Assembly: GCF_007744075.1 (NCBI RefSeq)
Contig: NZ_CP036266.1
Span: forward strand, 6,809,248 to 6,873,247
DNA from: Gimesia chilikensis
GTDB lineage: Bacteria; Planctomycetota; Planctomycetia; Planctomycetales; Planctomycetaceae
DNA: 64,000 nt
Reading direction: 5' to 3'
Shown here: in pieces, positions 2,440-35,669 of the stretch
Numbering within the stretch: the first letter of the stretch is position 1
Layout of the letters: every line of letters starts with the position of its first letter
Made by a program: the position numbers and the translations under genes
The notes under the pieces: generated by a model
What the model saw: the letters and a program-made list of their open reading frames with translations, nothing else
Told to the model about the DNA's origin: nothing
The model's database searches: none

Positions 2440-2749
2440 TGACTTACCGCATTCTCGCTAGAGTTAAATGTGATGCGCTCTTGAAGATCTGCAAACGACG
2501 TTGCACTCGCTTCCGGATCTTCGTTCTTGTGATCCCCTGCTCTGAACCTCGTCCCAAAGCTGATTTTGCCTGAGTCCTTTTGTACGTGTTTCCAGTAATT
2601 AGCCCCGCAGCGATGACAGCGGAATAGATGGTGCTGCGGGAAGTGCAGGGAACCGGCCTGGGCTTCCGCCTGGGACAACATGGTGTTGTTATAGTGCTCG
2701 CGGGTTGATGAGTCTGTCGAGACAAAGATACCAGCAGTCCCAACCACAT
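2440..2749 (-). pseudogene. Decayed C-terminal remnant of a ThiF/E1-like protein
   Basis: Two overlapping minus-strand frames together match the C-terminal third of the intact ThiF protein at 11920-12585. The first gives REHYNNTMLSQAEAQAG, which parallels [17 protein letters not shown] there. The second then gives CTSRSTIYSAVIAAGLI, which parallels [17 protein letters not shown] around the proposed catalytic cysteine. The switch of frame between them shows a frameshift, and no Rossmann-like N-terminal half is visible upstream. After about 25 residues past this motif the similarity fades. It is a fossil of a second ubiquitin-like E1 of the same family. The match was made by eye, so a pairwise alignment is the deciding test. 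Confidence 0.65.
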
Positions 2750-6685: not shown

Positions 6686-7897
6686 TTATTGAGGGAACAG
6701 CCTGTCCTTCACGAGTTGAATTACGGTTTCCCTCAGCCAGGATTCAGGAACCCGACGATCGTTGTCGCAGGCTCCAGAACGATAACCTGGACAACCGTAG
6801 GAAGCATAATTTCGAACCTCACCGGCTTTGGTCGTATAAGCAGAACTGGCCGATGAAACCATGGCTCGTCCGCAGGAAGAGCAGACGACCAGTCCAGATA
6901 GCGGGTACTTCAGCGCCACTCCGCGGGGGCGGAGCCCAGAATGATCGGCATCCGGATCAGGGGCTGTCACTCTTCGGCGACGTGACTCAATCATCTGCAT
7001 CGATTGCTGCCATAATTCTTTCGAAATGATGGGTTCGCAGAACTCCGAGTTTACTACCCATTCTTCCTCTGGAATGCTCTGCTTGACTCTTACGTCATCC
7101 TCAATCCCTGTACAGTTTTTACCCCAGACCATTTCACCATAATACAGTTCATTGCGAAGTATGCTGGCGACTGTGGCTTCCGTGAAAGGTTTCAGATGAC
7201 TCGGAATATCCGGATGGCTATTGAGTTTTTTACAGATGCGGACGGGACCAAAGTTTTCCTGTGCAGATAAGGTAAAAATAAACTCGACAATCCACTTCAA
7301 CTCCGGGATCGGTACCAGAATCCGGTGATCCAATTCTTCATCACCATGTCGGATCACCATGACATTCTTCAGATAGAATCCGAATGGTGGAGAACTACCG
7401 GGCCATTTCCCTTCTCGAATGGCGTCTTTTTTACCGCGTAAGACATTATGTGCTTTAGTTCGACATTCTTCAGACGCACGATAAGCCTCCATGAATGACA
7501 ATGCCCGACCTGACACGCTATTCGGATCTGCAAATTGACTATCTGCTGTTAAGACAAGCGTTCCTGCCTTGAGCAACATACGACGAATCTCAGCGTTGTT
7601 TTCAGAGCGAGACAGTCGTTCGAAGGTGTCAACAAGAACATAATCAGCCCGTAGAACGCCTGACTTTAGCTCCCGAAGCATCTTTTGAAATCCTGGTCGC
7701 TTACGAAAGTAACGACCCGAGATGGCATCGTCCCGATACACGGCGACTACCTGCCAGTTCAGCCCCAAACGTTTTAGTGTGTCCTTAATCGTAGTGATCT
7801 GTTGTTCCGGACTTCTTGGGTTTTGCTTGCTACTCGACATTCGAGCATAAATGACTACATGAGGGTTTGGGTTCAAACCAAACTTAGTTTTTAACAT
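6686..7897 (-). CDS. Large serine recombinase, catalytic and zinc-ribbon half
   Basis: This is a site-specific DNA recombinase that cuts and rejoins DNA through a phosphoserine link. The N-terminal resolvase domain (about residues 12-150) has the catalytic serine region YARMSSSKQ (Ser21 likely) and the arginines of VYRDDAISGRYF and DTFERLSRS. A recombinase domain follows (about 165-290; GKWPGSSPPFGFYL, ATVASILRNELYYGEMVWG). It ends with a zinc beta-ribbon (CSSCGRAM ... CPGY ... C) near residues 337-385. At 403 residues it stops where the family's long coiled coil should begin; that part is encoded by the next gene. It is a mobile-element integrase or excisionase; no attachment site was identified. 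Confidence 0.85.
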   Translation of the reverse strand: MLKTKFGLNPNPHVVIYARMSSSKQNPRSPEQQITTIKDTLKRLGLNWQVVAVYRDDAISGRYFRKRPGFQKMLRELKSGVLRADYVLVDTFERLSRSENNAEIRRMLLKAGTLVLTADSQFADPNSVSGRALSFMEAYRASEECRTKAHNVLRGKKDAIREGKWPGSSPPFGFYLKNVMVIRHGDEELDHRILVPIPELKWIVEFIFTLSAQENFGPVRICKKLNSHPDIPSHLKPFTEATVASILRNELYYGEMVWGKNCTGIEDDVRVKQSIPEEEWVVNSEFCEPIISKELWQQSMQMIESRRRRVTAPDPDADHSGLRPRGVALKYPLSGLVVCSSCGRAMVSSASSAYTTKAGEVRNYASYGCPGYRSGACDNDRRVPESWLRETVIQLVKDRLFPQ

Positions 7898-10455: not shown

Positions 10456-11892
10456 ATGAACAAAAAAGCATTTTATCATAAATCAAAAAATTGTTGGAAC
10501 CAATATCGTGAAAAACATCGCTGGATTCGTATCGAGAAATTCCCGGACGGGATAGAACCGCCTCAAAAAGTACGTATCTACAGACAAAACGACTACTTTC
10601 GGCTTCAGTTCTGGGACCCAGCTGCGAAAAAGAACCTCACAGAACGGGTCGACGGTGACCTGGTGACCGCAATCTTTCGTGCCCGGGAAATTGAGGAACG
10701 ACTCAAACACTTTCGCTCATCCGGTTTAGGGCGTGGTAAACTGAAGCACCAGAATCTACTGGAGCTTTATCAAAGTCACTTACAACGTCGAGCCGATGCC
10801 GGTGAAATCGATCCCAAAACGGTCAGAAGATACGCGTCAGCATTAGAACATTATCGCTGTTTTGTGGATCAACCACTGATATCAACGACATGTCCATCAG
10901 CCACTAACGTCAATCGAGAATTAGTCTTACAGTTTCAATCGCATCTGAAAAACCTGCAGATTTCTTCAAACGGGCACCCTAATACAGAGAAACATACCAT
11001 GGTTTCTTCTGATTATGTTCTCGATGTTGTCCGGGGAATGTATATCTGGGCGGCGGACCCTGATCGTGGAAACTTAATGCCTTCAGGATTCCGAAATCCT
11101 TTCCAGGGAAAGTTCAGACAAACTGAGTCAGTCGCACCGGACTTGTTTGGTGAGCCCGACATCACAGTCCCCATGGCAGTGGAATTTCTGAAAACATGTG
11201 ACAGCTATCAGCTTCAACTGTTCGCCCTGTTGATATTTTATGGCCTGAGGGCTTCCGAACCCTGTTTTCTTTTCCGGGATAACCTGACCTCAGATGGCTG
11301 GTTGAAAGTGGTCTGCCTGCCCCAGATCAGTTACAGGACCAAGGGGAGGCGGGATAAGCGGTTACCTTTGCTGGAGCCTATTCGGATATTATTTGAGAAG
11401 CAACCCCGCCACACGGAAGCAGGGCTGTTACTTCACCGCCGTAGCGTGTGGGAAGGAATTGAAAAATCACCTTTGGTGAGTTATTCCCTGGATGAGATCA
11501 CCAAGGAGTATACCCGTCGTTGTAGAAAAAGCACGAATCTTAGTGCAGAGCAGGGGATACAGATTCGAGATCAGCTACTCCAGGAAGCGGGTGGACTGAA
11601 ATACGATCATATTGAAAACGAATTTCATCGCCTGGCTGACCAGTTATCCTGGCCAGCCGAGGCGACGCTTAAAGATTTTCGCCATCTGTTCAGCACAGCT
11701 ATGATGAACGCCGGGATGCCAGAATACTACCGTAAATACTTGATGGGCCATGCCGTCAGCAAGTCTGCAATCAGCACTTACACCCACCTGGACCAGTTAC
11801 GGGAACATTATCTGGAAGCCGCTCAAAGACAGTTCCTGCCCTTGATCGAAGTTTTCACCAGGCGCAGTAATGAGCTGGTTTCAGCAGCTTAA
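10456..11892 (+). CDS. Tyrosine recombinase / phage-type integrase
   Basis: This catalyses site-specific integration or excision by a phosphotyrosine intermediate. The start follows GAGGTGCGTA. An N-terminal arm and SAM-like DNA-binding domain (about residues 90-200) precede the catalytic domain, with Arg265 (YGLRASEP), Arg409 (LKDFRHLFST), His432 (MGHAV) and Tyr442 (STYTHL). The histidine of the usual HxxR box is a lysine here. At 478 residues it is longer than phage lambda-type integrases because of a basic N-terminal region of about 85 residues. It points toward the ubiquitin-like operon, ending 28 bp from that operon's last gene on the opposite strand. It resembles the integrase at 37963-39366 in layout. 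Confidence 0.85.
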   Translation: MNKKAFYHKSKNCWNQYREKHRWIRIEKFPDGIEPPQKVRIYRQNDYFRLQFWDPAAKKNLTERVDGDLVTAIFRAREIEERLKHFRSSGLGRGKLKHQNLLELYQSHLQRRADAGEIDPKTVRRYASALEHYRCFVDQPLISTTCPSATNVNRELVLQFQSHLKNLQISSNGHPNTEKHTMVSSDYVLDVVRGMYIWAADPDRGNLMPSGFRNPFQGKFRQTESVAPDLFGEPDITVPMAVEFLKTCDSYQLQLFALLIFYGLRASEPCFLFRDNLTSDGWLKVVCLPQISYRTKGRRDKRLPLLEPIRILFEKQPRHTEAGLLLHRRSVWEGIEKSPLVSYSLDEITKEYTRRCRKSTNLSAEQGIQIRDQLLQEAGGLKYDHIENEFHRLADQLSWPAEATLKDFRHLFSTAMMNAGMPEYYRKYLMGHAVSKSAISTYTHLDQLREHYLEAAQRQFLPLIEVFTRRSNELVSAA

Positions 11893-11919: not shown

Positions 11920-12585
11920 TCACTCAGGAGCGAGAACCAGTTCGCTCGCCAGCAGGTTCAGGCTCAGATCCCTGTCAACCGGCAGGCAACGCAGGAAGCG
12001 GCTGAACTGGTGCAGCATTAGTCCTGCCGCAATATTGGCCGTGTAGATCGTACTCTGGGCAGTACAGGCACCGGTGTGAGCCTCCGACTGATCAAACAGC
12101 GTGGATTCATAATCGTCCCGCATCTCTGGAGGGGAGATCGCCAACACCCGGATCAATTCTCCCAGCATCCGACCATCAACAAAGAACTCACATTTCGCTG
12201 ATATGGCACGCCAGATTGCTTCCCGTGCGGAAATGGAATCCACACAGCAGAAGATTACGCTGCCCGTATTGTGCCGCGGACGAAAACGGTCCTGTAGCTC
12301 CGTGATACTGATTTCAGGAGCCAGACTTTCAGCAGCCTCTCGCGTCGCAGTCGTCTTGTACTTGCCCAGATCTGCCACCTGGTACCCTTGAGTCGTGATA
12401 TTGGTCAACTCGACCTGATCAAAATCGATCAACTGAAGCCGTGGAACCCCGATCGCCGTTAGTTGCAGTGCTACCTGTCGGCCGATTGCTCCCACACCGA
12501 TCACAGTCGCCGAAACCTGAGAAAGTCTCTCTGGGGGAACCAGGTCACTCTGTCTCTGAAAACGATTTACCGTTGTATTTGTCAC
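11920..12585 (-). CDS. ThiF/E1-like adenylating enzyme of a ubiquitin-like system
   Basis: It should adenylate the C-terminus of the ubiquitin-like protein encoded at 14269-14493 and take it onto a cysteine. The glycine-rich nucleotide loop ([10 protein letters not shown], residues 28-37) and acidic site ([11 protein letters not shown], 52-62) are intact. Cys174 in [12 protein letters not shown] is the best candidate for the thioester cysteine. The enzyme is a bare 221-residue ThiF domain without a ubiquitin-fold domain, rhodanese or zinc CxxC pairs of MoeB. Its start (GTG) overlaps the stop of the JAMM gene by 4 bp, which implies translational coupling. PRTRC plasmid cassettes carry similar ThiF proteins, but no ParB-like gene is present here. 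Confidence 0.85.
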
Positions 12586-13235
12586 TTCAAGTCTCCTTCC
12601 AAATCAGGTTCATCGAAAAACCAGTCCGCATCCCAGTCAAAACCGGAGAACGACGATAAGGGCCTGCCGGGTTGGCATTGCTCGGGATGCACGTTCGTTA
12701 AATATTCTTGTTCCCAGCATTCGGGATTACAGCCTGGAAAAGGCTCTGAATAATCCAGCCGGACAGGAATTTCACATTCAAACGCGGGGCCGGTATTCAT
12801 GCGCAGGCGGGCATAAGACCTTCCCTGCCGGGCCAGGATGAACATCACGGCCCAGTCGGATCGACCGAAGACGCGCTCGAAAGTTTCTTCATCAGTTGGA
12901 CTGGGTTCCGGACACTCTCCCGGATGGGTGTGTATCCAGATCCGGCCAAACTGCTCAGGACGGAGGCCGGCATCGACCTGATCGTCAAAGAAATTCGCGA
13001 CTGATTCGTCGTCGAAGGTAACATGGACCAGAGAGCAGGTCTGTTTCACCAGTTGCAGGTCCTGGACAAGTAGCAGATCCGTCGAGGCAGTGATTCCAAA
13101 GCCGCCGACTTCCGTGTTCCCATAATCACGCAAAAACAGCAATTTGGCCCAGGCGGTCGGACTAAAGCGGAGTGCCGGCAGGGGTGACCGTCTCCGGCGA
13201 CGTGATATCCTGGTCCGGTTCGTACGTTTCTTCAT
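12582..13235 (-). CDS. JAB/JAMM-type metallopeptidase, likely deconjugating or maturing enzyme
   Basis: A zinc isopeptidase of the JAB1/MPN+ family. All ligands of the JAMM signature are visible, numbered from the ATG at 13235: Glu42 (TEVGGF), His102 and His104 (HTHP), then seven residues, Ser112 and Asp115. It begins with a strongly basic patch ([15 protein letters not shown]), and the domain spans about residues 20-150, leaving an acidic aromatic C-terminus. A GTG at 13313 is possible but would overlap the preceding gene by about 150 bp; ATG 13235 overlaps it by 74 bp. Its place between the E1 and E2-like genes points to processing of the ubiquitin-like precursor or removal from targets. 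Confidence 0.85.
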
Positions 13236-14178
13236 CTTCCTGTGTTTCACAGATGGGGCACCTTTCTTCATTATCGAGGCAATTTGAGCAACAGCTGGAA
13301 CCACAGAGTCCACACTCTTTCAGGCAGGATTCGCAACAGTCATCTCGGCAGATTTCACAGCGGGTCGAGCAGTCGTGGCAAAGTGAGGAGCTACAGTCGG
13401 CACAGCCATTGGCACATTGCCGGCACAAGCGGTTTTCGCAGTTGCTACAGTGGGTTTGTTCTTCGGTTGTTACAACGTCCGCACATTCACTGCATTCTGC
13501 ACTGTGCCAATCGCTGAGGGCGACGTAAGGACTATCCGGGTTGTAAGTGCGTAACAGACGCGACACCAGCATGAAAAAATCCAGCAGCCGTCCCTGTTCC
13601 AGAGCACGTCTGATGGGCACACGGGCGTCCCCTTCACAGACGTTGTCAGACTGCACGTGCGGATGCGTGACCGCATCATCGGTGATCGGCGGCTGCGGAT
13701 CTTGAGCAAACACTTGATAGTGAAAGGGTGAGTCTGAGTTCTGGTCTGCCAGTTCCAGACGAATCTCAAACGCTCCCAGAGAGACACCTTCCAGCACAAT
13801 TGGCTCTGTCACCACCGAAATCGTCTTGTTCTTGAGGTCGATGGAATATTCACCAAACTCTTCGTCCAGGGCCAGCAGGTCTTCGTAGATGGTGTGTACC
13901 GCAGGTAAGGGCTTTTCAGCAATGGCTGACTCCAGTTCCTTCTGCAACGCCACTAGTTGCCGCGTCAGCTGAAACACCTCTGTGGTCAGTTCCCGTTCTA
14001 CCTTGGTGGCCACATGAAACCAGCCTCTTTGCTGGGCCTGCTGTCGCATGCGGACCAACCGCAGGCAGTTTAACCAGGCCACTTCCGGTAGCCTAGTGTT
14101 TGTCTCACTTCCCAGTGAGCTGAGTTGTTGCTCAACGAGACTGGCCATCCGCCAGACCTTTTTGAGGCTCTGTTTCAT
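13162..14178 (-). CDS. E2-like (UBC) domain fused to a cysteine-rich RING/treble-clef-like region
   Basis: This 338-residue protein appears to join the E2 and E3 roles. A helical N-terminus (1-90) is followed by an E2-like domain (about 93-224): a beta meander, [14 protein letters not shown], then [15 protein letters not shown], which aligns with the HPNV...C active-site region of E2 enzymes and makes Cys181 the likely catalytic residue. Then [14 protein letters not shown] resembles the E2 segment with the asparagine-proline pair. Residues 229-310 hold 22 cysteines, mostly as CxxC pairs, as in RING, B-box or zinc-ribbon treble clefs. An acidic tail ends the protein. ATG 14178 is preferred to TTG 14241, because the TTG lies in a terminator-like hairpin. 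The E2 assignment is by eye and needs a profile search. Confidence 0.7.
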
Positions 14179-14205
14179 AGTTCGTTTACTCCCACTAATA
14201 GAAAA

Positions 14206-14237
14206 CAGGCTGCCGGGACTTTGATCCCGGCAGCCTG
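14206..14237 (-). terminator. Perfect hairpin between the ubiquitin-like and E2/RING genes
   Basis: A 13 bp perfect stem (14206-14218 with 14225-14237, loop CTTTGA) is followed on the minus strand by TTTTC, a moderate U-tract. It lies inside the operon, so it may attenuate expression of the enzymes relative to the ubiquitin-like protein, or stabilise the upstream mRNA. Confidence 0.7.
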
Positions 14238-14268
14238 TCAATGACCGAATATTTCACGACTGGAACGG

Positions 14269-14493
14269 TTATATTTTCGCCCCCTCAATCTTCGTCGGAG
14301 TTATGGAAATCCGATCCCCGTCCTGTAACCTCTGATCGGGAGGGCAGGGCTGGCGATTGACTCGGATCAAATAGTTCGAAGCGTTCGCATTCGCCATGCG
14401 CTGTTCGAACAGTTGAGCGACCGTGGTCCCCGTGGCGACTTCGATGTAGTCCGCGAATCCACCACCATCGTTGTTAATCAATAAAACTTTCAT
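14269..14493 (-). CDS. Ubiquitin-like beta-grasp protein
   Basis: A 74-residue protein with the alternation expected of the beta-grasp fold: MKVLLINND, a turn, [18 protein letters not shown] (second strand plus helix), [22 protein letters not shown]. It ends [10 protein letters not shown]. There is one glycine, three residues before the end, not the usual diglycine tail. If JAMM cleavage removes AKI, the mature form would end in ...IEG and could be activated by the ThiF enzyme. It resembles the small MoaD/ThiS-like partners encoded next to ThiF genes. A ribosome binding site (AAAGGAA) precedes the ATG. Function as a conjugated modifier is inferred from the E1, E2-like and JAMM genes beside it. 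Confidence 0.75.
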
Positions 14494-14544: not shown

Positions 14545-14712
14545 TTAACCAAGAAGCTTTCGTTTGCGACGTCGTTTTCTGCGCCGACTTTTTATGGAAC
14601 GGCGTCCCCGTTGCCGTCCACTGTGGAGCATCTGCAGTCGATTTGATTGGAAGGGACCTGCTGCCTGGCTGAAGCAGCGAATGGTCTCGAGATCACACCC
14701 ACGACGGTACAT
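14545..14712 (-). CDS. 55-residue arginine-rich peptide
   Basis: The frame from ATG 14712 to TAA 14545 is uninterrupted and preceded by AAGGA seven bases before the start. The product begins MYRRGCDLETIRC and ends with a basic block, SIKSRRRKRRRKRKLLG. About two fifths of the second half is Arg or Lys. The start overlaps the end of the 71-residue gene by 20 bp and the stop is 51 bp before the ubiquitin-like gene, so it fits the operon spacing. Such a tail could bind nucleic acid or act as a lysine-rich conjugation target. No family recognised. Being below the length used by most gene finders, it is easily missed. Confidence 0.55.
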   Translation of the reverse strand: MYRRGCDLETIRCFSQAAGPFQSNRLQMLHSGRQRGRRSIKSRRRKRRRKRKLLG

Positions 14713-14908
14713 GATTTAATCCTTCCGTCTGTGGGCTCAGCCTGTGGTTGTCCAGTTCGTCCCAGTCGATGACCAGCGGGCCCGACATCTCCGAATTCGG
14801 ATCAACGGTTTCCTGGGGCTCCGACAATAAAAAGCCCAGGCGTTTGACAGTGGAAATTGTCTCACCGGTAGCCAGGGCAACGGCCCGATTCAAGTCTGTC
14901 TGTTTCAT
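14693..14908 (-). CDS. Small conserved-looking hypothetical protein of the ubiquitin-like operon
   Basis: A 71-residue soluble protein starting MKQTDLNRAVALATGETIST, a helix with an N-terminal DNA-binding-like character, followed by RLGFLL and the acidic segment LVIDWDELDNHR. The start has AGGAGACATTAG upstream. It sits between two operon genes on the same strand. I recall similar short proteins with a GET(I/V)STxKRxGF motif beside ThiF/JAMM genes, but cannot name a family. Role unknown. Confidence 0.65.
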   Translation of the reverse strand: MKQTDLNRAVALATGETISTVKRLGFLLSEPQETVDPNSEMSGPLVIDWDELDNHRLSPQTEGLNHVPSWV

Positions 14909-14942
14909 CTAATGTCTCCTAAAACGAGGGTTTAATAAAAAA

Positions 14943-14980
14943 GCCCCGGCTCTGCAGAGACAATTCTGCATGACCGGGGC
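14943..14980 (-). terminator. Terminator-like hairpin inside the operon
   Basis: The arms GCCCCGG (14943-14949) and CCGGGGC (14974-14980) enclose a second stem, TGCAGA (14953-14958) with TCTGCA (14965-14970). On the minus strand a run of six T follows directly (GGCTTTTTTATT). It separates the 81-residue and 71-residue genes and should stop part of the transcripts coming from the AAA+ side. Confidence 0.75.
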
Positions 14981-15002
14981 ACTGTGCGGGGAAGTTACAT
15001 GT

Positions 15003-15248
15003 TCAAGAGTTGGGAGTGAGCCAGTGCTGCTCCAGCCAGTCAACTTCTGACTGCAGAGCCGCACTCCGTTGTGCGAACGGCCCCAGTCGAGGTCCCTGGA
15101 CGGCGGAGAGATCGACGATCCACTGACCAGCCGCATTCGGTTCCACAAACGAGCCGCGTGAGATGTGCAGTGGACCGAGGGCAGCTAGGTCGATGGCTTC
15201 CGCGTAAATACAGCGGACTTGCCCTTCAGCAGTGATGATGAGTTGCAT
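15003..15248 (-). CDS. Small hypothetical protein of the ubiquitin-like operon
   Basis: An 81-residue soluble protein with a clear pattern: a beta start (MQLIITAEGQVRCIYAEAID), LGPLHISRGSFVEPNAAGQW, then LSAVQGPRLGPFAQRSAALQ and an amphipathic end EVDWLEQHWLTP. This looks like a compact alpha/beta domain. It begins 9 bp after the stop of the 314-residue gene, so the two are cotranscribed. I recognise the pattern from planctomycete and other bacterial operons with ThiF and JAMM genes but know no assigned function. Confidence 0.7.
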   Translation of the reverse strand: MQLIITAEGQVRCIYAEAIDLAALGPLHISRGSFVEPNAAGQWIVDLSAVQGPRLGPFAQRSAALQSEVDWLEQHWLTPNS

Positions 15249-15257
15249 GTGACCTCC

Positions 15258-16202
15258 TCACTTCGGAGTCCGTATGATCTGACGCCGCGGCCGGTCAACC
15301 AGCAGACCATCCAGGGCAGCCTGGACGCTAGACAGATCGGATGCGACCTGCTGCCGGAGGGCGTTCCGCTTTCTCAGTTCCTGGGGCTGCATCCCTTCCA
15401 CAATGTTTTGACACTGGGAGACGAGCGCATCCAGTTGTTCGTTGGATCGCACATTCAATGACCGGAAACGTTCAAAGAATTCGTGCAGGTTTCCAATGGC
15501 CGAATCCCGGAAGACCTTAGGACGGCCGTCGGCGTGTCCGCTCAGGCGATCCGTGAGATGAGACACCAGCTTGGACAACTCATCCAGAAAGGCATCTTCC
15601 GCCAGCCGGACCGCCTCTTCGAATCGCGATTGTACGCGCTGGCACTCCTGTTCGTAGAGTTCAGGGTTGAGTTGCCTGAGATAATTCGGTGGTTCGATAC
15701 TGGGGAATTCCCAGGCCACTTCAAACAGCCCCACCAGCGTTGCGGGATAATCGTCGTCATTGAACAGACTTCCCAGTCGCTCCCGAGCCGCTGATTTCAT
15801 GGACAGGTATTGTTCATCCAGTTCCGCGACCGCCTCGGCCAGTTCTTCCGTAAACCGATGCATCTGCTCCTGGAAAGCGTTCAGTGCATCCTGTCGCAAT
15901 AAGCGGATGCCTGATTCCGGAAAAGGCAGACTGACCGAGGTCCAGTATTTCCGTACCTGGTTACGAACGGCACTTACGGCCCGAAAACGGGGATGACCCG
16001 TATCCAGCAGTTTCTTGCCGGCACTCAGGAACGCCCCTTCCGCACCAAACGATTCGGCGGCCTGGGCTTTCTGGTCGCGAGTGAGGGACTTCCGGGTCCC
16101 AAACCATTCAAAACTGACCCGCGTGGCACACATTGTTGCCCTGAGACGATTGATCGGATCGTGGCGGGTCTCAACTTCTTCTTCAATCGTAGCCATAGTC
16201 AT
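15258..16202 (-). CDS. Helical hypothetical protein paired with the AAA+ ATPase
   Basis: A 314-residue, mostly helical, charged protein without signal peptide or zinc motifs. Recognisable stretches include FEWFGTRKSLTRDQKAQAAE, FLSAGKKLLDT, a central helix EQMHRFTEELAEAVAELDEQ and LNPELYEQECQRVQSRFEEA. ATG 16202 is preferred because AAGGAG lies five to six bases upstream and it avoids overlap with the AAA+ gene, which the earlier start at 16295 would cause. It comes directly after the AAA+ gene, so it may be its adaptor or substrate-binding partner. No family name can be given with confidence. Confidence 0.7.
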   Translation of the reverse strand: MTMATIEEEVETRHDPINRLRATMCATRVSFEWFGTRKSLTRDQKAQAAESFGAEGAFLSAGKKLLDTGHPRFRAVSAVRNQVRKYWTSVSLPFPESGIRLLRQDALNAFQEQMHRFTEELAEAVAELDEQYLSMKSAARERLGSLFNDDDYPATLVGLFEVAWEFPSIEPPNYLRQLNPELYEQECQRVQSRFEEAVRLAEDAFLDELSKLVSHLTDRLSGHADGRPKVFRDSAIGNLHEFFERFRSLNVRSNEQLDALVSQCQNIVEGMQPQELRKRNALRQQVASDLSSVQAALDGLLVDRPRRQIIRTPK

Positions 16203-16227: not shown

Positions 16228-17724
16228 TTAGTTTCTGCGGGGATCGCGGGAGAGTTTTCGTTCCGCTCGGCCTTCCGATCGCTCTCCGTGGACAAAGACG
16301 CCCGGCTGCTCTGCAGACAGGCAACGGTTGCTGGCCCAACGTCTGAGACGGGCCACCGATTCCGCGGCTGTGACAGCCACGGGGACCACGTTCTCAGCAG
16401 CCTTGGTTAACGGGACATCCAGCAGGGCCGCAAGACGACAGCAGGCCCGGATTTCGGAACCGGTCCAGTGCCGGTCTTCGGGCTGCTTCTGGTCCTCGGT
16501 AAGCCCATACTGTTCCCGGTAGATGTTCCAGATCGCCTGCTTCTGACCATCCCCCGGCAGATCCAGAAAGAAGAGGCCGTCAAAACGTTCGGCCCGGATC
16601 AGTTCCGGAGGAAGTTTTGAGATGTCGTTGGCGGTGCAGACCACAAATACATCTGAAGTATGATCGTTGAGCCAACTGAGCAGCGATCCCAGCATACGCG
16701 TGGAGACACCGCTGTCGGACTGTCCGGACGAGGATGCCCCACTCAGGCCTTTTTCAACTTCGTCGATAAACAGAACGGCCGGCTGCATCGCATCCACGAT
16801 CCGGAGGGCTCGCCGTGTTCGCTCTTCCGTCTGGCCTACGAGTGAACCCATCAGTGCTCCAACGTCAAGAGTCAGTGTGGCCCGCCCGGTCTCCCTTCCC
16901 AGGGCTTTAGCGAAGGCACTTTTACCGGTACCGGGGACGCCCAGCAGCAGCACACCTCGTGGACGCACATGAGACGATTCCTGAGTCCTGGGACGCAGCG
17001 CACGTCGGCAAAAGGCCTTGAGCGATTCCAGGCCGCCCAGGTCATCAAATGACTCAGAACCGCGATGAAGCGTTAACAGTCCGCTTTTCAGCAGCGTCTG
17101 AGCCTTTAGCTCCAGCACGACCGAGACATCAATGCGTCCGTGCCGTACCAGGGAGAGGCTGAAGGCTCCCTCTGCCTCGTAGCGAGTCAGGCCGCAGGCG
17201 GCGTCCAGGACACATTCCAGTTCCGGTCCCTCAGGCAATTCGCCGGCTTCTGTGGCAATGCTGCGAGCGATCTCTTCCAGCTGGCTCCGGTCAGGGAGAT
17301 CGTGTTCCAGGCAGACGAACAGTTTTTCCAGCTCAGTGGGAATCTGGACCAGGCTGGACAGGACGATCACGAAGGTCCGGGTCTGCTTGCCCAGACTGAT
17401 TTGTTGCGTCAATGCCTGGATGATTTCCGGGGAATTGATGAACCGATGGAAATTCTTGAGGACGAGCAGTGTGGGGCGATCTGGCTCGGTCTGGCTGTTC
17501 AGACTGTGGATGGCTGCCAGGGGATCGGGATACGACGTGTCGCTTTCTCCAACGACCTCTGTTCCCTGCAGCCCCCGGTCGATGTCCCAGGAGAGCAGGC
17601 CCCAGTCTTCACTGTGGCAGAGCCGGGTGATCTCTAGCAGTGCCTCGTCATGTTCATGGCTCTGAATCCAGATGCCGGTAAAGCAGGCGCGTACGTTCTC
17701 CGCCAGTCGTTCGTTTAATAACAT
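16228..17724 (-). CDS. AAA+ ATPase of the Ycf46 type
   Basis: A 498-residue ATPase likely to remodel proteins. An N-terminal degenerate ATPase-like region (about 1-200; TLLVLKNFHRF resembles a Walker B strand) precedes one intact AAA+ module. That module has Walker A GVPGTGKS (262-269), Walker B VLFIDE (317-322), sensor-1 TAND (364-367) and arginine-finger region RAERFD (377-382). This arrangement, a degenerate N-terminal domain plus one active module, is that of plastid/cyanobacterial Ycf46. The AAA+ gene lies beside DUF1257 (Ycf35-like) and DUF2997 genes, a known neighbourhood for such proteins. Here it shares an operon with ubiquitin-like conjugation genes, suggesting work on modified proteins. 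Confidence 0.85.
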   Translation of the reverse strand: MLLNERLAENVRACFTGIWIQSHEHDEALLEITRLCHSEDWGLLSWDIDRGLQGTEVVGESDTSYPDPLAAIHSLNSQTEPDRPTLLVLKNFHRFINSPEIIQALTQQISLGKQTRTFVIVLSSLVQIPTELEKLFVCLEHDLPDRSQLEEIARSIATEAGELPEGPELECVLDAACGLTRYEAEGAFSLSLVRHGRIDVSVVLELKAQTLLKSGLLTLHRGSESFDDLGGLESLKAFCRRALRPRTQESSHVRPRGVLLLGVPGTGKSAFAKALGRETGRATLTLDVGALMGSLVGQTEERTRRALRIVDAMQPAVLFIDEVEKGLSGASSSGQSDSGVSTRMLGSLLSWLNDHTSDVFVVCTANDISKLPPELIRAERFDGLFFLDLPGDGQKQAIWNIYREQYGLTEDQKQPEDRHWTGSEIRACCRLAALLDVPLTKAAENVVPVAVTAAESVARLRRWASNRCLSAEQPGVFVHGERSEGRAERKLSRDPRRN

Positions 17725-17771: not shown

Positions 17772-18365
17772 TTAAGCGGTCTCAGCCAGCTGTGCAATCG
17801 TCTCCAGCCAGGAGATGATTTCCCCGTCTGGATCACGTTCCTGCAATAGGGGAACTGTCATCTGTTCGACCGCGCTGGTGTTTAGCCAGTGCTTGGCCCG
17901 ATTCCTAAGCTTGACCCGCGGTCGATGATCGAGCAGTTCCCAGCAATAGTCATTATGCCGGCTGTCGAATACTTTCTGTGCCACCTCCGACGCCACGCAA
18001 TCTTGGTCTCCGAATGTGGGAGTGATGTCGGCCACGGCCTCTATGGCACGGGGATGCAGGTAGTTTTCCAGGCTCCGTTTCTGAGTCAGCACGGCACGAC
18101 AGCGAGGTCGGCGGTTGATCTGAGCAATCAGCATTTCCCGCTGTTCCGACTCAGGGGGCCTCTCCGCGTCATAGATATGAAATTCTGCAAGCTGAAGCGG
18201 TGCCAGTCGCTTGATCCAGGCCCGGGGATGGCCACCGATCGGGAAAAAGATGAGTTGCCTGTTGCCTTCCATGGCAGCCAAATCAGGGAGTGCAGGTTGC
18301 TCAGCATGGAGCAGCGTCGAGATGCGTGTCAAGAATTCGATATCATGCGTCCCTTCGACGACCAC
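17772..18365 (-). CDS. Toprim-like (OLD-type) protein, start codon uncertain
   Basis: The sequence VVEGTHDIEFL has the conserved glutamate and aspartate of Toprim domains, and HIYDAERPPES supplies a second acidic site, as in OLD-family nucleases. Residues beyond about 70 (RAVLTQKRSLENYLHP) also fit that family. The GTG at 18365 would remove the first beta strand: the upstream frame reads TVRVLVVVEG and stays open for about 30 more codons, to a TGA near 18454, but holds no ATG, GTG or TTG. A non-standard start (CTG, ATT or ATA) behind the GAGAGGAG at the end of the DUF2997 gene is possible. There is no ATPase domain, unlike full OLD proteins. Confidence 0.6.
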   Translation of the reverse strand: MVVEGTHDIEFLTRISTLLHAEQPALPDLAAMEGNRQLIFFPIGGHPRAWIKRLAPLQLAEFHIYDAERPPESEQREMLIAQINRRPRCRAVLTQKRSLENYLHPRAIEAVADITPTFGDQDCVASEVAQKVFDSRHNDYCWELLDHRPRVKLRNRAKHWLNTSAVEQMTVPLLQERDPDGEIISWLETIAQLAETA

Positions 18366-18436
18366 CAGGACACGTACGGTCTGGGGATCTTGCAGAATCC
18401 GCTCAGGTAATTCCTGTATGTGTTGTGAAGTGAAAA

Positions 18437-18631
18437 CTAATTCTCCTCTCTTAATTCATTAGGTTGCTGTTGAACCGTCTGATGGTATTCGGCGGTCAGC
18501 TGTTCCGAAGAAACTGTTCCCAGGGCTGATTCCAGAAACCGGCTGGCGTCTCGGCAGCGAGAGCCGGTAAAGCCGCGTGTTTCGATCCGGGACTGACCGT
18601 CGGTAGAGATAATGATTTCAATGGTTTGCAT
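18437..18631 (-). CDS. DUF2997 family protein
   Basis: A 64-residue protein of DUF2997: MQTIEIIISTDGQSRIETRG, then GFTGSRCRDASRFLESALG. This short family sits beside DUF1257 (Ycf35) in cyanobacteria and other bacteria. ATG 18631 gives the family's usual length; the longer frame to 18790 adds an unrelated segment inside the DUF1257 gene. It overlaps the end of the DUF1257 gene by 14 bp, so translation is probably coupled. No biochemical role is established; association with the AAA+ ATPase is suggested by context only. Confidence 0.8.
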   Translation of the reverse strand: MQTIEIIISTDGQSRIETRGFTGSRCRDASRFLESALGTVSSEQLTAEYHQTVQQQPNELREEN

Positions 18632-18995
18632 GGCCCTCTCCGATCTGAATAGTGAGTTTGATGGAACCGTCGCTGAGTCGGTTTTCCAGGACGGAATGTC
18701 CCTTACGCCTGGCTTCCAGACGACATTTTTCCACGCTATAGGATTGAAGCAGCCGATTGAGATGAGTCGGCTCACCCCAACGGCCTTCAAAGTTGTCGTA
18801 ACGGACCTGCCTCTGTTCTACGTCGAAGACGACGGGATACCGCCAGTCGGGGAGACGGACCGCGTAACCAGTAGCTTCCCCACTAAACAGCGGGACGGTT
18901 TCATGAACGGGCTCTCCCAGTTCGAGACGACGGCAGGCCAGTCCCAGGGCTTCAGCATCGCGGACCTCGGTCTGGATCGTGACAATATGTGACAT
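18618..18995 (-). CDS. DUF1257 (Ycf35-like) protein
   Basis: A 125-residue protein of the DUF1257/Ycf35 family: MSHIVTIQTEVRDAEALGLA at the start, a central YAVRLPDWRYPVVFDVEQRQ, and VRYDNFEGRWGEPTHLNRLL, where aromatic and glycine positions match the family. It is cytosolic. The gene is directly downstream of a lipoprotein gene (1 bp gap) and overlaps DUF2997, indicating one transcription unit. Family members occur in plastid and cyanobacterial genomes next to ycf46-type genes; function unknown. Confidence 0.8.
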   Translation of the reverse strand: MSHIVTIQTEVRDAEALGLACRRLELGEPVHETVPLFSGEATGYAVRLPDWRYPVVFDVEQRQVRYDNFEGRWGEPTHLNRLLQSYSVEKCRLEARRKGHSVLENRLSDGSIKLTIQIGEGHANH

Positions 18996-18996
18996 A

Positions 18997-19569
18997 TCAT
19001 GTGTTCCTTTCTGTAGGATGAGTGGAATCGGGCTTCTGCGGGAAATCCGTCAGCCGTGGTTGGTCTGGATCTGTGTTTGCAGGTGGCATCAGCCGCGGTT
19101 CGGATGAGATTAGGTCTTCCAGCAGCAGTTCCGTCATTTGTTGATCGTCTGCGGGTTCGATTTTCTGACTGAGCAGCAACCAGCAGATCAACAGGGGCAG
19201 CAGGCTGACGACCACCATGGCCACCCTGGTAATTGCAGCGGCAATAATCGGATCACGATTACGGGTGTCAGCGATTTCGCGACGTTCCGCCTCCAACTGG
19301 TCCCGCTGGTGTCCGATTTCGTTTCGTTCGGTCTGCATTTCGTGCTGCAGAGTGACCATCTCCTGCCGGGACCTGGCATCCGCTTCCACCAGTTCCCGTG
19401 AACCAGAGGCGACTTCCTGCTGAAGTTCCGCCATCCGCTGGTTTTGCTCAGCCTGGCGTTCCAATTGCTGTGTGGCCAGTTCGGCCACGCGGCTGTTTTC
19501 GTCGGAACTACAACCGGCTGCGGTCAGCAGGATCAGTGTCAGTATGATTGGCAGAGTCGGTTTTTCCAT
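18997..19569 (-). CDS. Lipoprotein with periplasmic coiled coil and membrane helix
   Basis: A 190-residue protein starting with a lipoprotein signal (MEKPTLPIILTLILLTAAGC, lipobox at TAAGC). A long coiled coil follows (about residues 30-105, ELATQQLERQAEQNQRMAEL onward), then a transmembrane helix (VAMVVVSLLPLLICWLLL, about 115-133), then an acidic tail. So a lipid anchor and a second membrane span enclose a rod-like segment. It is part of the ubiquitin-like operon and the only membrane protein there besides the small upstream gene. It may tether the machinery to the membrane. No family recognised. Confidence 0.65.
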   Translation of the reverse strand: MEKPTLPIILTLILLTAAGCSSDENSRVAELATQQLERQAEQNQRMAELQQEVASGSRELVEADARSRQEMVTLQHEMQTERNEIGHQRDQLEAERREIADTRNRDPIIAAAITRVAMVVVSLLPLLICWLLLSQKIEPADDQQMTELLLEDLISSEPRLMPPANTDPDQPRLTDFPQKPDSTHPTERNT

Positions 19570-19765: not shown

Positions 19766-19828
19766 GTTTTTACTGATGACGAGTTTGAAAGAAGATCGAC
19801 TGCGATCAATGATAGGTAAGCGTTTCCC

Positions 19829-19866
19829 TCATGTATCATGCCACGTTTTAGGCCAAAATTTAGATG
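19829..19866 (+). repeat. Direct repeat A (35 bp dispersed repeat)
   Basis: Contains ATGTATCATGCCACGTTTT followed by AGGCCAAAATTTAG. It is nearly identical to copy B at 22349-22385 (one difference over 33 bp) and similar to copy C at 24423-24456. All three copies have the same orientation and lie between genes. The core TTTTGGGCCAAAA (TTTTAGGCCAAAA here) is almost palindromic. See the finding on cassette-like modules. Confidence 0.7.
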
Positions 19867-22172: not shown

Positions 22173-22865
22173 AGATCTCCTTTCGTTGAATTCTATTTTG
22201 ATTTCAAGTTGATGGGGATGGGTTGAAAAAGCATACCGAATTGGGGAGTCATGGGCGGCTCGCGATACCATTTTCTATGAACGCTATTTTTCAACATCAA
22301 TAGTGAAAATACAGGGTTTGAACGCTTACCCAATAGATAATATCTCCCCTATGTATCATGCCACGTTTTGGGCCAAAATTTAGGTGTAATTGTGTGATTA
22401 GAGGGGGCAAAGCCGACAAATTGACTTGTTCTGAAGTAAAACGCGGTTAGGGTTGAATGCGATAGCCCAGGACTAGCGGATTACCGTAGTCCAACTGGTT
22501 GAAACACGTATTACTGGCACTTTTGCGCGGCCTCAGAGCTCTTATATTTTATAATCTGGGGCAATCCCGACTGAAATTTGAGTTTTGATTCACTGACACC
22601 GGCCGGGGAGTTGAGAGCGACTGTTCTGAGTGCAATCAGTAGTGCCCCAGCAAAACCGAATAAGACTTATTCGCTGCCTTAAACTGCGAATCGAGTCTCT
22701 CCTGGTTGCATTTAATATTGTGGTCCATGGTTGATAAACCAACGAACTGGACCAATTCTGCATTGCGCTCGAACGTATGGTGTGGCGACTGTCAACTGGT
22801 AATACATTGCCTGATTCTATCGTTAGCTGCTAGAATCGAAGTCCGAGATTGATAAGGAAACCATT
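22173..22865. other. Intergenic region containing repeat B
   Basis: About 690 bp without a supported gene. It holds direct repeat copy B (22349-22385). The rest shows no coding signal or clear hairpin. Confidence 0.5.
22349..22385 (+). repeat. Direct repeat B
   Basis: Matches copy A at 19829-19866 over ATGTATCATGCCACGTTTT then GGGCCAAAATTTAGG. Upstream of it lies AACGCTTACC, which is the inverse of GGTAAGCGTT upstream of copy A, so the flanks may also be related in inverted form. Confidence 0.7.
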
Positions 22866-24146: not shown

Positions 24147-24719
24147 GCTTACATTAATGTGCCTATTATCACACCGATCCCCCCCCCTGCCGATCTCGCG
24201 AGCTTCGACAGTCTTCTCAACCGGTCCGTGCGGATTGAATGAGTTGTGTATGCCCGGCCGTCGTTCTACGGTCCCGAGTCGGCACTCAAATAACTCGCAA
24301 GCAGGCATTCAATCCCCATAGTCGAAAACGCTCCTGCGGTTCAGTCCAATAGATCATATGCCGCGTGTTGAGTACCCCGGAAAACCACTCCACCTGAATG
24401 CTAACACGCTGCATATAATCCTATTTATTATGACACGATTTGGGCCAAAATTTAGGTTCTTGAACGAAATCGATACTTAGGTCGCTACTTCTTTGGTGAT
24501 TGACATGGAGAATCAGTCAAATATGAAAGCCTGCTTTTTTAATTAGACCGTAAGCAGTTAAAAATATGGTTATCCACAGAGGAACAACAAACGACTCTAC
24601 TCATTTACGAACTAAATTCCGGAAATGGTTCTATCTTGGTCTTGTCTTGAACAAGAAAATGTTGGATTAAATCTGCCGCAATATTTATTATGAAGCACTC
24701 TCAAATAAGGGGACTTATA
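24147..24719. other. Intergenic region containing repeat C
   Basis: About 570 bp. It holds direct repeat copy C. A minus-strand frame around 24123-24308 looks like a remnant of a mobile-element ORF but has stops in the plausible frame and was not called. Confidence 0.45.
24423..24456 (+). repeat. Direct repeat C
   Basis: ATTTATTATGACACGATTTG then GGCCAAAATTTAGG: about 5 differences from copy A or B over 34 aligned bases, without gaps. It marks the right edge of the pRiA4b module. Confidence 0.6.
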
Positions 24720-26596: not shown

Positions 26597-27685
26597 ATGA
26601 GTAACAGGGGCACAAAAAAAAAGAAAACTGGCTCACTTTATTCATCAATAAGTGCAGTGGACTTGTTTTGTGGTGCCGGTGGCTTAACTTGTGGACTCGA
26701 AAAAGCAGGCATTTCTGTCAATCTTGGGATAGATATCGACCCAGCTTGTATATATCCATACTCCACTAACAATGATGCAGAATTTCTCTTGAAATCTGTC
26801 GATGATGTCAAAGCCTCAGATCTATCAAGTGCGTTTAAAAATGCCGACTTGAAACTTCTGGCTGGTTGTGCACCATGCCAGACATTTTCTTTATACAACC
26901 AAAAAGCTGACTCATCGGACGGACGTTGGTGGTTGCTGATGCAATTTTCACGTTTGATACGAGAAACCGCTCCGGAACTTGTAACAATGGAAAATGTTCC
27001 GGGGCTGATGGAACAGGATGTTTTTAAAAAATTTGTGGACGATTTAGAAAAACAAAAATATCACGTCAATTTTCAGATAGTGAATTGTGCCGAATACGGA
27101 TTGCCACAACAGCGAATTCGTTTGGTTCTTTTGGCATCTAAACTGGGAACAATCAAATTACTCAATACAAAGGAGTTTAAGCGAAAGCCCAAGACCGTCA
27201 AAGAAGCCATTGGTAAATTGCCATCTATTGAGGCAGGCACAATTGATACTAAAGACCCTTTACATCAGAGTGCCAGCCTCTCAGAAATCAACTACAAGCG
27301 AATTCTCGCTTCAAAACCAGGTGGAACTTGGCGAGATTGGCCTAAGAAGCTTGTGGCCAGTTGTCACAGCAAAAAAAGTGGTAAGACCTATCCGAGTGTG
27401 TATGGTCGAATGAGTTGGGACGAACCTGCTCCAACTATTACTACTCAATTTTTCGGCTTCGGTAATGGTCGGTTTGGTCACCCAGAACAAAACAGGGCAA
27501 TTTCGTTGCGTGAAGGTGCCGTACTGCAGAGTTTTCCCAAAAAATACAAATTTACGGCTCCTGGTGAGCCTATTAGTAAAAAAACACTGGGGCGTCTTAT
27601 TGGTAATGCCGTCCCAGTAAAACTTGGGGAAGTCATTGGTAAAAGTATTTTGAAACATGTAACGGAATATGACGCATCCGTTTAG
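26597..27685 (+). CDS. drmMII: Cytosine-5 DNA methyltransferase (DISARM-associated, DrmMII type)
   Basis: A C5 cytosine methyltransferase that would mark host DNA. Its motifs are in order: I DLFCGAGGLTCGLEKAG (about residue 20), IV with the catalytic Pro-Cys LLAGCAPCQTFSL (about 97), VI ENVPGL (about 136), VIII QRIRLVLLAS (about 174), IX and X GRMSWDEPAPTITTQFFG through TLGRLIGNAVPV. The target recognition part is about 220-270. The start has GGAGGAAATAG upstream. Its stop is 21 bp before the helicase gene, so it leads the operon. Dcm-type enzymes of class 2 DISARM occupy this role. Confidence 0.9.
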   Translation: MSNRGTKKKKTGSLYSSISAVDLFCGAGGLTCGLEKAGISVNLGIDIDPACIYPYSTNNDAEFLLKSVDDVKASDLSSAFKNADLKLLAGCAPCQTFSLYNQKADSSDGRWWLLMQFSRLIRETAPELVTMENVPGLMEQDVFKKFVDDLEKQKYHVNFQIVNCAEYGLPQQRIRLVLLASKLGTIKLLNTKEFKRKPKTVKEAIGKLPSIEAGTIDTKDPLHQSASLSEINYKRILASKPGGTWRDWPKKLVASCHSKKSGKTYPSVYGRMSWDEPAPTITTQFFGFGNGRFGHPEQNRAISLREGAVLQSFPKKYKFTAPGEPISKKTLGRLIGNAVPVKLGEVIGKSILKHVTEYDASV

Positions 27686-27706
27686 AAAATTTAGACAGAG
27701 AGGACC

Positions 27707-34851: not shown

Positions 34852-35669
34852 TGCCAAACCGAGAATTGAGAGCAATTTCAGATGATGGGGAAATCTTGAA
34901 TACTGATTTATGGAAAACCATAGCGGACATTGGGATCGAGCTTCATCCTGACCGGGTCAACACAATAGCGGACAAACTAGCTAATATTTCTTCAATAGAC
35001 GAATTTTACCAGGTGAGCTCCAGTTTCGGCCCTGTTTCCAATAGAACGATGATGGACGCATTGGAGAAGGCATGGCGAAAAGATCCCGAGGTCTTGCCTT
35101 TGGAACTCGCTGCAGCATTGCGTGGGGCTTCTGGAACTGCCGCCATTATGGAAAAGCGTGAAGCGGTCGAGATGGTCTGGACTGGTCCGTTTACTGGTTT
35201 GGTAGCTTCTCGACATACTGAGCAGGTTCTGCTTGAGGTGATAGGTGCTGCCAAATGGAGACTTTTCATTGTCAGCTTCGTTGCTTATGACATTGATTCG
35301 GTCAAAAAGGCACTACAAGAAGCTATTGGCAGAAACGTAAAGATCAATATCTTACTTGAATCTTCAAAAGATCATGGAGGTAAGATAGATATTGATTCGA
35401 TAGATGCCTTCAAAAAAGCTATACCGTCAGCAAATATGTATGCGTGGAAATCCAAATCAAAATCTTCAGATCAATGGAATGGTGCAGTTCATGCAAAATG
35501 TGCTGTTGCCGATGGATCTCTTGCTTTCATTACAAGTGCCAATCTCACCAGAGCGGCCATGGAGAAGAACATGGAACTCGGTGTCTTGGTGCGTGGAGGA
35601 AATTTACCTGAAAAGCTTGAATTACATCTAGATGCAATGGTGTCTACCAGAGTGATAGAGAAAATATGA
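34851..35669 (+). CDS. drmC: DrmC (phospholipase D-like nuclease) of a DISARM system
   Basis: A 272-residue protein starting with GTG inside the DrmB stop (TAGTG). The C-terminal half is a PLD domain: KWRLFIVSFVAYDIDSVKKA, KINILLESS and the HKD motif HAKCAVADGSLAFITSANLT (His about 215, Lys 217, Asp 222). Only one HKD motif is seen, so a dimer would form the active site. In other DISARM systems DrmC is dispensable or accessory for protection. It lies directly before a Vsr gene. Confidence 0.9.
   Translation: MPNRELRAISDDGEILNTDLWKTIADIGIELHPDRVNTIADKLANISSIDEFYQVSSSFGPVSNRTMMDALEKAWRKDPEVLPLELAAALRGASGTAAIMEKREAVEMVWTGPFTGLVASRHTEQVLLEVIGAAKWRLFIVSFVAYDIDSVKKALQEAIGRNVKINILLESSKDHGGKIDIDSIDAFKKAIPSANMYAWKSKSKSSDQWNGAVHAKCAVADGSLAFITSANLTRAAMEKNMELGVLVRGGNLPEKLELHLDAMVSTRVIEKI

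Follow-up and report, generated by a model that had tools for sequence, protein, structure and literature searches.

Bacterial ubiquitin-like systems and the Gimesia locus

In type II cyclic oligonucleotide-based antiphage signalling systems (CBASS), Cap2 and Cap3 provide ubiquitin-activating (E1), ubiquitin-conjugating (E2) and JAB peptidase chemistry, with E1 and E2 fused, and act with a CD-NTase. Operons of E1, E2, JAB and ubiquitin-like (Ub) genes have been described in bacteria; in one type each of the four is a separate gene and the histidine is missing from the E2 (consulted sections of Iyer 2006, PMC1779556). Operons akin to the archaeal Ub-E1-E2-RING-JAMM set are reported from Planctomycetes (excerpt of PMC4197634, citing Burroughs 2011). 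The archaeal cascade works in vitro, including trimming of the precursor by JAMM (excerpt of PMC5654768), and the Bil and Bub systems are covered by the consulted parts of PMC11354881 and PMC13373217. Here we describe a four-gene set in a 64,000-nucleotide stretch of Gimesia chilikensis (RefSeq GCF_007744075.1, contig NZ_CP036266.1, positions 6,809,248 to 6,873,247), hereafter the window. We regard the set as a variant of bacterial ubiquitin-like conjugation that resembles the ParB-related, ThiF-related cassette (PRTRC) in gene order, and read it, with a probability of about 0.7, as a pathway, located on mobile islands, that tags proteins reversibly with a ubiquitin-like modifier.

A probable four-gene conjugation set

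The minus strand from 14493 to 11920 holds, in the 5' to 3' direction, a Ub precursor, an E2-like enzyme, a JAMM peptidase and an E1, with an 80 bp overlap between the E2 and JAMM genes and a 4 bp overlap between the JAMM and E1 genes:

14269..14493, minus strand: ubiquitin-like beta-grasp precursor, 74 aa, conserved to the ending ...KIEGA (Pfam ThiS, E 9e-7, above cut-off)
13162..14178, minus strand: E2-like conjugating enzyme, 338 aa from ATG, with N-terminal helices, UBC fold and a C-terminal arm of ten CxxC (AlphaFold2, Foldseek, 37-sequence alignment)
12582..13241, minus strand: JAMM/JAB metallopeptidase, 219 aa, E...HTH...S..D (ligands kept in 29 relatives; PADLOC JAB, E 5e-6)
11920..12585, minus strand: E1/ThiF-like adenylyltransferase, 221 aa (Pfam ThiF, E 1e-24; 31-sequence alignment)

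An original prediction, made from the letters of the window and its reading frames, had placed four such genes here, and its E1, JAMM and beta-grasp assignments are borne out by Pfam, PADLOC and the alignments. As judged from these sequences and models, the E1, E2, JAMM and Ub precursor belong together. The E1 exceeds the Pfam cut-off for ThiF, and its GxGxxG, DxD, N61, Q65, K76, D115 and Cys174 are kept in 31 of 31 relatives, while no CxxC pair is seen on inspection of the window E1; its nearest curated model is PRK08644/ThiF_fam2, and the curated ThiF cut-offs are missed (69 vs 159 bits). The JAMM protein scores 17.1 bits against Pfam Prok-JAB, under the 25-bit cut-off. The claim that it retains all its ligands is upheld by the 29-sequence alignment, in which the window protein and its relatives carry the E, HxH, S and D set: E44, H104, S114 and D117 are kept in all 29 sequences and H106 in 28, the remaining one (L072) having an undetermined residue at this second histidine. 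Similarities to the 2023 PADLOC models were generic (E1-E2 4e-17, JAB 5e-6, IetA 1e-13, BilD 8e-8).

An E2 domain is predicted in the 338-aa protein. The original prediction had been made to depend on an E2 fold at residues 93-224, and the AlphaFold2 model (predicted local distance difference test, pLDDT, 87.8) places a UBC fold at about residues 93-226; all 50 Foldseek matches listed for this model are E2s by title, with modest E-values. Residues H172, H174, C181 and G183 are kept in 37 of 37 sequences and P173 in 36, and His-Pro-His stands nine residues before Cys181 in 36 of the 37, with His replacing the Asn of the classical His-Pro-Asn. In loci collected through their E2, presence of the E2 is by construction, and invariance of HPH..C is not. 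Both cysteines proposed earlier for substitution, Cys181 of the E2-like protein and Cys174 of the E1, are invariant in relatives. The frame-interrupted E2 of one locus (L086) was left out of the 37-sequence alignment. Searches of Pfam, NCBIfam and PADLOC returned no family above cut-off for this protein, and Siva was a sub-threshold match of its Cys-rich part. The top VIA-align rows for the E2 model were set aside, being helical proteins aligned to the N-terminal helices and not E2s.

The E2 domain and the Cys-rich arm form one chain in all 37 aligned relatives, as had been proposed for the window protein, and 16 arm cysteines are invariant. The spacing CxxC-x11-CxxC-x4-CxxC-x3-CxxC is compatible with RING and also with FYVE-type clusters, and weak profile matches of the arm fall on Midline-1, FYVE and TRAF3 entries alike (E 0.002-0.016). 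Loose RING and FYVE regular expressions each match 37 of 37 arms, and are uninformative because cysteines are so dense there. The region first called RING-like is here named a Cys-rich arm, which may be a RING or a FYVE-type cluster.

In 36 of 36 Ub precursors the conserved part ends in (K/R)(I/V)(E/Q)GA, after which come 0-35 residues that vary from family to family. The modifier is a beta-grasp protein as predicted, with the correction that Gly-Gly is absent from these precursors and a single glycine stands in its place. Because the ending is invariant and the tail variable, processing after one Gly is implied, and the ending resembles a processing site that would yield a single-Gly mature end. 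A PDB sequence search with the Ub profile returned just two filament entries (E 0.05 or worse), and tblastn of the E2 and of the Ub against 72,556 plasmid records gave no match.

That the four genes carry out tagging chemistry we regard as probable, and with reasonably firm confidence. As conservation suggests, JAMM would trim the Ub precursor after the invariant Gly of -KIEG|A; the E1, like others of its family, would adenylate the new C-terminal carboxylate and may then hand the Ub to the E2 at Cys181, either by way of its own Cys174 or in one step. The E2 would join the tag to a target amine, the fused zinc arm perhaps being an integral ligase part that binds substrate or Ub, and the same JAMM could take the tag off again.

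Comparison with described conjugation systems

Unlike the fusion of type II CBASS, E1 and E2 are separate genes here, and general library scans found no CD-NTase among the proteins scanned. BilABCD likewise comprises four genes (Ub-like, E2, JAB and E1); the Ub domain is doubled in BilA, however, and the E2, BilB, carries CEHH (consulted part of PMC11354881), whereas here we find a single 74-aa Ub and HPH..C. Neither a tandem-Ub BilA nor a CEHH E2 is present, and the similarity to BilD (E 8e-8) is only generic. A Ub precursor, E1, E2, zinc E3-like (ligase-like) part and JAMM are common to this set and the Caldiarchaeum-type operon, but in the archaeon a small protein of its own forms the RING, and the Ub carries Gly-Gly (excerpt of PMC5654768), in contrast to the single E2-arm chain and the lack of Gly-Gly here. 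Neither the E2-zinc fusion nor the AAA+/DUF3150 link described below was found by title or abstract in the literature searched; the contents of Burroughs 2011 lie outside that scope, and we make no claim that either is unreported. The searched part of PMC7203096 yielded no occurrence of ubiquitin.

The longer operon

A single operon had been predicted, which holds, but its extent was underestimated: upstream of the Ub genes it reaches about 18995. Its additional genes were compared across 58 loci, 41 with the Ub module (23 of these also with AAA+ and DUF3150) and 16 with AAA+/DUF3150 only, the latter having been picked from DUF3150-positive, mostly E2-less genomes, so that the ratio is not a prevalence. 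One further locus among the 58 (L107), which carries the clamp-like family described below, was left unclassed because its DUF3150 frame did not cluster; another (L096, a weak match to the Cys-rich part only) had been dropped beforehand. The upstream features are:

14202..14239, minus strand: strong hairpin then TTTT in the Ub-E2 gap (window gap z -5.4)
14545..14712, minus strand: small, basic 55-aa protein that closely precedes Ub in some copies (three of the five other copies of the operon in this genome have a homologue)
14693..14908, minus strand: o71, small conserved protein (family in 32/41 Ub-module loci)
15003..15248, minus strand: o81, small conserved protein (follows DUF3150 on Manganitrophus plasmids too)
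15258..16202, minus strand: DUF3150-fold helical protein, 314 aa, open reading frame (ORF) opening at 16295 (Foldseek/BFVD; 29% identity to an annotated DUF3150)
16228..17724, minus strand: Ycf46/CDC48-like AAA+ ATPase, 498 aa (Pfam AAA, E 9e-27; phrog_8638, E 4e-83)
17772..18452, minus strand: o197, conserved protein, frame open to 18452, first listed start codon at 18365 (family in 13/41 Ub-module loci)
18437..18631, minus strand: DUF2997 protein, start picked at the ATG before the domain (PF11211, E 7e-17)
18618..18995, minus strand: DUF1257/Ycf35-like protein (sub-threshold PF06868, E 0.006; 26% identity to an annotated DUF1257)
18997..19569, minus strand: F11, lipoprotein-like coiled-coil membrane protein (18/41 Ub-module loci vs 3/16 loci with AAA+/DUF3150 only)

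Ycf46 and Ycf35 occur in cyanobacteria and plastids. The closest PDB entries of the AAA+ protein are CDC48, AFG2 and VCP, which agrees with the earlier recognition of a Ycf46-type ATPase beside the set; the unfolding step attributed to it is hypothetical. The ATPase belongs to a separable module that is also found without tagging genes. Five structure models of the 314-aa protein reached pLDDT values of 78, 75, 56, 53 and 49. The best BFVD match of the best of these is a phage protein named DUF3150 (E 3e-13, template modelling score 0.66-0.70), and seven further matches at E <= 0.001 do not carry that name. The window protein does not match the Pfam DUF3150 model at E <= 1, a Pfam scan of 22 relatives gave nothing convincing (DUF3150 was not among the 25 families listed), and a PDB fold search with the DUF3150-like model was likewise unconvincing.

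Modules of phages and plasmids similarly set an AAA+ next to DUF3150, DUF1257 and DUF2997. Plasmids of Candidatus Manganitrophus group the AAA+ (40% identity), DUF1257 (26%), DUF2997, DUF3150 (29%) and o81 (45%), with ParB and PRTRC genes some 7-10 kb away. On the Burkholderiaceae plasmid pPT365, the neighbours of DUF3150 are another ATP-binding protein and a VWA-like protein, whereas here a Ycf46/CDC48-like AAA+ is joined to the Ub set.

Hairpins in the Ub-E2 gap (14202-14239) and the o81-o71 gap (14909-15002) keep their position but not their sequence among relatives. Folding z-scores were <= -3 in 19 of 25 Ub-E2 gaps (40-160 bases) and 16 of 19 o81-o71 gaps, vs 0 of 4 o71-Ub gaps and 0 of 7 JAMM-E1 gaps, and a T run follows some, not all, of the gap hairpins. 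Because two hairpins bracket the Ub gene, they may set a raised level of Ub. An extra gene, o95, lies beside o71 and Ub in two other copies (L010:6223-6513 and L012:6181-6621); its family occurs in 11 of the 41 Ub-module loci and has no Pfam match above cut-off.

Copies, selection and distribution

The genome is a single contig of 8.29 Mb, with the window at 6.81-6.87 Mb. A ThiF scan found 11 places, five of which, besides the window, are further copies of the operon (six in total), and the copies share, in the same order, the AAA+, a 345-aa ORF, two small proteins, Ub, E2, JAMM and E1. The original prediction had overlooked these six copies, along with the GA-ended precursor, the DUF1257, DUF2997 and DUF3150 partners, the nearby recombinases and the parallel with PRTRC. 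The ratio of nonsynonymous to synonymous substitution rates (dN/dS) between the window copy and three of the five others (L009, L011 and L013) was 0.04-0.21 in 23 of 24 gene comparisons; the E2 comparison with L013 was saturated, and several dS values exceeded 1. The four compared copies are under purifying selection. Chance is excluded by the six copies, the low dN/dS and the fact that 55 of 397 genomes from the class hold relatives.

The E1 of the window has a dN of 0.34 against L009 and L011, compared with only 0.02-0.09 for its operon neighbours, and DNA similarity to both copies ends at 12142. This divergence and the end of similarity suggest that the operon end was exchanged. A decayed E1 fragment at 2444-2749 (minus strand), similar to the copy at 5.41 Mb, is probably a relic of a further operon copy. 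Elsewhere in the genome, L016:5710-7491 (minus strand) encodes a 593-aa protein with a ThiF domain at about residues 298-390, possibly another Ub-type system.

Phylum-wide, the E2 was found in 21 of 392 genomes (13 full-length, eight weak matches to the Cys-rich part alone). In the class it occurs in 55 of 397 genomes, some with fragments only, and the DUF3150-like protein in 120; both are present in 43, E2 alone in 12, the DUF3150-like protein alone in 77 and neither in 265. Co-occurrence in 43 of the 55 E2-positive genomes gives a Fisher p of 2e-15 with kinship ignored. At most five candidates were scored per genome, and copy numbers are thus lower limits. Named genome contigs yielded 14 loci, 11 of them in records titled planctomycetes, and IMG/VR one; records of metagenome-assembled genomes titled Emcibacter and Chloroflexota may be mis-binned planctomycete contigs. 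Frame-interrupted genes (the AAA of L087, the JAMM of L083 and L092, the E2 of L086) were read only as separate pieces.

In many genomes the AAA+/DUF3150 module stands without tagging genes. Of the 16 loci with this module alone, 9 also carry a clamp-like family (one member matches phrog_947 at E 4e-9; no Pfam match), vs none of the 41 Ub-module loci (p 1e-6), and a PD-(D/E)XK nuclease is present in 5 of the 16 and 3 of the 41.

Relationship to PRTRC cassettes

The order Ub-E2-JAMM-E1 corresponds to PRTRC C-(F)-B-A-ThiF, with separate genes and a place on mobile replicons in both. The nine PRTRC Ub proteins read are conserved as far as (K/R)G, where they either stop or continue into a variable tail. 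HPH before the Cys, present here, is absent from the PRTRC B alignment; the Cys-rich arm fused to the E2 is likewise unlike PRTRC, and no PRTRC E, F or ParB was recognised here, where the operon is often joined to AAA+/DUF3150. The operon type 6d of Iyer 2006 is probably the PRTRC cassette.

The E1 scores 33.8 bits against TIGR03736 (PRTRC ThiF), under the cut-off of 144.75, and no other curated PRTRC model matched E2, JAMM or Ub at E <= 0.1. In hhalign, the E1 profile matches PRTRC ThiF at 99% (E 6e-18, 179 columns), although any two ThiF groups might match so. An unrooted tree of 32 E1 rows recovers window-type E1s and PRTRC ThiFs each as one group and splits both from five other E1s of the genome (support 98/93), with few outgroups and long branches. 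The Ub profile has no similarity to PRTRC C, while the E2 aligns its catalytic Cys column with PRTRC B at 3.9% probability and JAMM its HxH and D with PRTRC A at 21%.

PRTRC ThiF was detected in 329 of 72,556 plasmid records at E <= 1e-20 and DUF3150 relatives in 32 records (E <= 1e-3), mostly from Burkholderiaceae and not independent. At least 27 of the 32 also carry PRTRC ThiF (26 among the 60 PRTRC ThiF rows listed, plus one other record), at a spacing of 5.9-35.4 kb (median 8.1 kb). In a 28th, CP114554, PRTRC C is annotated, so that at least 28 of the 32 share a plasmid with the cassette; the stretches read from Simplicispira (25 kb) and from one Rhodovastum plasmid (28 kb) bear no PRTRC annotation. 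DnaN, the DNA polymerase III beta subunit, is annotated within about 5 kb of the cassette in three of nine PRTRC cassette loci, some of them PRTRC-like (L127, L128 and L131).

One explanation that follows this parallel, and overlaps with our own, is that the set is a chromosomal-island offshoot of PRTRC, a maintenance cassette of the kind found on plasmids or integrative and conjugative elements, in which Ub machinery would regulate partition or replication of the element. The identical gene order, the E1 profile match, the sharing of Nitrospirota plasmids by PRTRC genes and the AAA+-DUF1257-DUF2997-DUF3150-o81 group, and the annotated DnaN genes all speak for such descent. The low TIGR03736 score, the silence of the other PRTRC models, dissimilar Ub profiles, the merely marginal E2 and JAB alignments and the absence of ParB families from the Pfam results for window proteins (a part of all ORFs) speak against it, and we hold it to be a serious contender at somewhat under even odds.

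Island surroundings

Two recombinases stand on the far side of the E1 gene:

10456..11892, plus strand: tyrosine integrase adjoining the E1 gene (Pfam Phage_integrase; family F18)
6686..7897, minus strand: serine recombinase (Pfam Resolvase/Recombinase; family F10, in 21/58 loci)

Of the 41 Ub-module loci, 7 carry the integrase family, as does 1 of the 16 with AAA+/DUF3150 only, and one or other recombinase family is present in 25 of the 58. The tyrosine integrase was dropped as a part of every copy, since among the five other copies only L010 (13-kb stretch) has it, and it is found in 8 of 58 loci overall. Upstream of the operon, at 24189-24462, about 155 bp recur at 91-96% identity upstream of three other copies, with an adjoining 114 bp at 81% in two of these; this is a possible island end. 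Repeats of 38-42 bp with about 90% identity lie in the upstream part of the island at 19825-19866, 22345-22386 and 24420-24457. Still farther upstream of the operon, some 2 kb outside this possible island end, a locus of the type of the defence island system associated with restriction-modification (DISARM) spans 26597-35669 (plus strand), with an MTase_II/DrmMII methyltransferase, a 1769-aa DrmD/DrmA-like chain, DrmB and DrmC.

Possible functions of the proposed tagging pathway

Anti-phage defence in the manner of Bil, Bub or type II CBASS, with a phage or defence protein as the tagged target, would fit the DISARM-type locus in the window, the use of E1/E2/JAB sets by such systems, the patchy spread and the nearby recombinases. 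We nevertheless think it unlikely: the 2023 PADLOC models were matched by generic E1, JAB and AAA similarity only, no CD-NTase or double Ub was found among the proteins scanned, and the partner module is found beside clamp-like and nuclease genes as well. Delivery of sulfur as a thiocarboxylate to a small-molecule or tRNA/cofactor product, in the style of ThiS/MoaD and ThiF and with JAMM only maturing the carrier, could draw on a modifier nearest ThiS in Pfam (E 9e-7) and an E1 nearest PRK08644/ThiF_fam2, but it is very improbable beside an E2-like protein with invariant HPH..C in the loci, an E1 that has no CxxC and misses the curated ThiF cut-offs (69/159 bits), and neighbours among which (in the part scanned) there is no biosynthetic enzyme, rhodanese or cysteine desulfurase.

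Within the reversible protein-tagging pathway that we prefer, control of a DNA-maintenance complex is favoured over defence, the DISARM-type locus notwithstanding, because, where tagging genes are missing, a clamp-like protein and a PD-(D/E)XK nuclease are frequent companions of the module. Our leading suggestion, though held at well below even odds, is that the AAA+/DUF3150/DUF1257/DUF2997 module may be a machine in island DNA maintenance whose client or own part is tagged. A fuller scenario, which as a whole we consider quite unlikely, is that an E2 with its own multi-zinc ligase arm tags, via a single-Gly modifier, a DNA-bound CDC48-like AAA+/DUF3150 complex on islands; the tagging module and a sliding clamp would be interchangeable at one position of the operon, and the pairing of Ub cassette and AAA+/DUF3150 would have arisen or been kept on PRTRC plasmids. 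If true, this would be a prokaryotic parallel of the control of replication complexes by ubiquitin and CDC48.

Should the chemistry prove real, a compact pathway of four small genes, of which this single-contig genome has six copies, would combine activation, conjugation, a zinc arm and removal, and could be used to test the ways in which E2 and E3-like functions are joined. The locus also links PRTRC-type Ub cassettes and DUF3150/AAA+ modules through their repeated co-location in unrelated replicons. The resulting question is what job the AAA+/DUF3150 machine performs, and whether the machine itself or a client is tagged.

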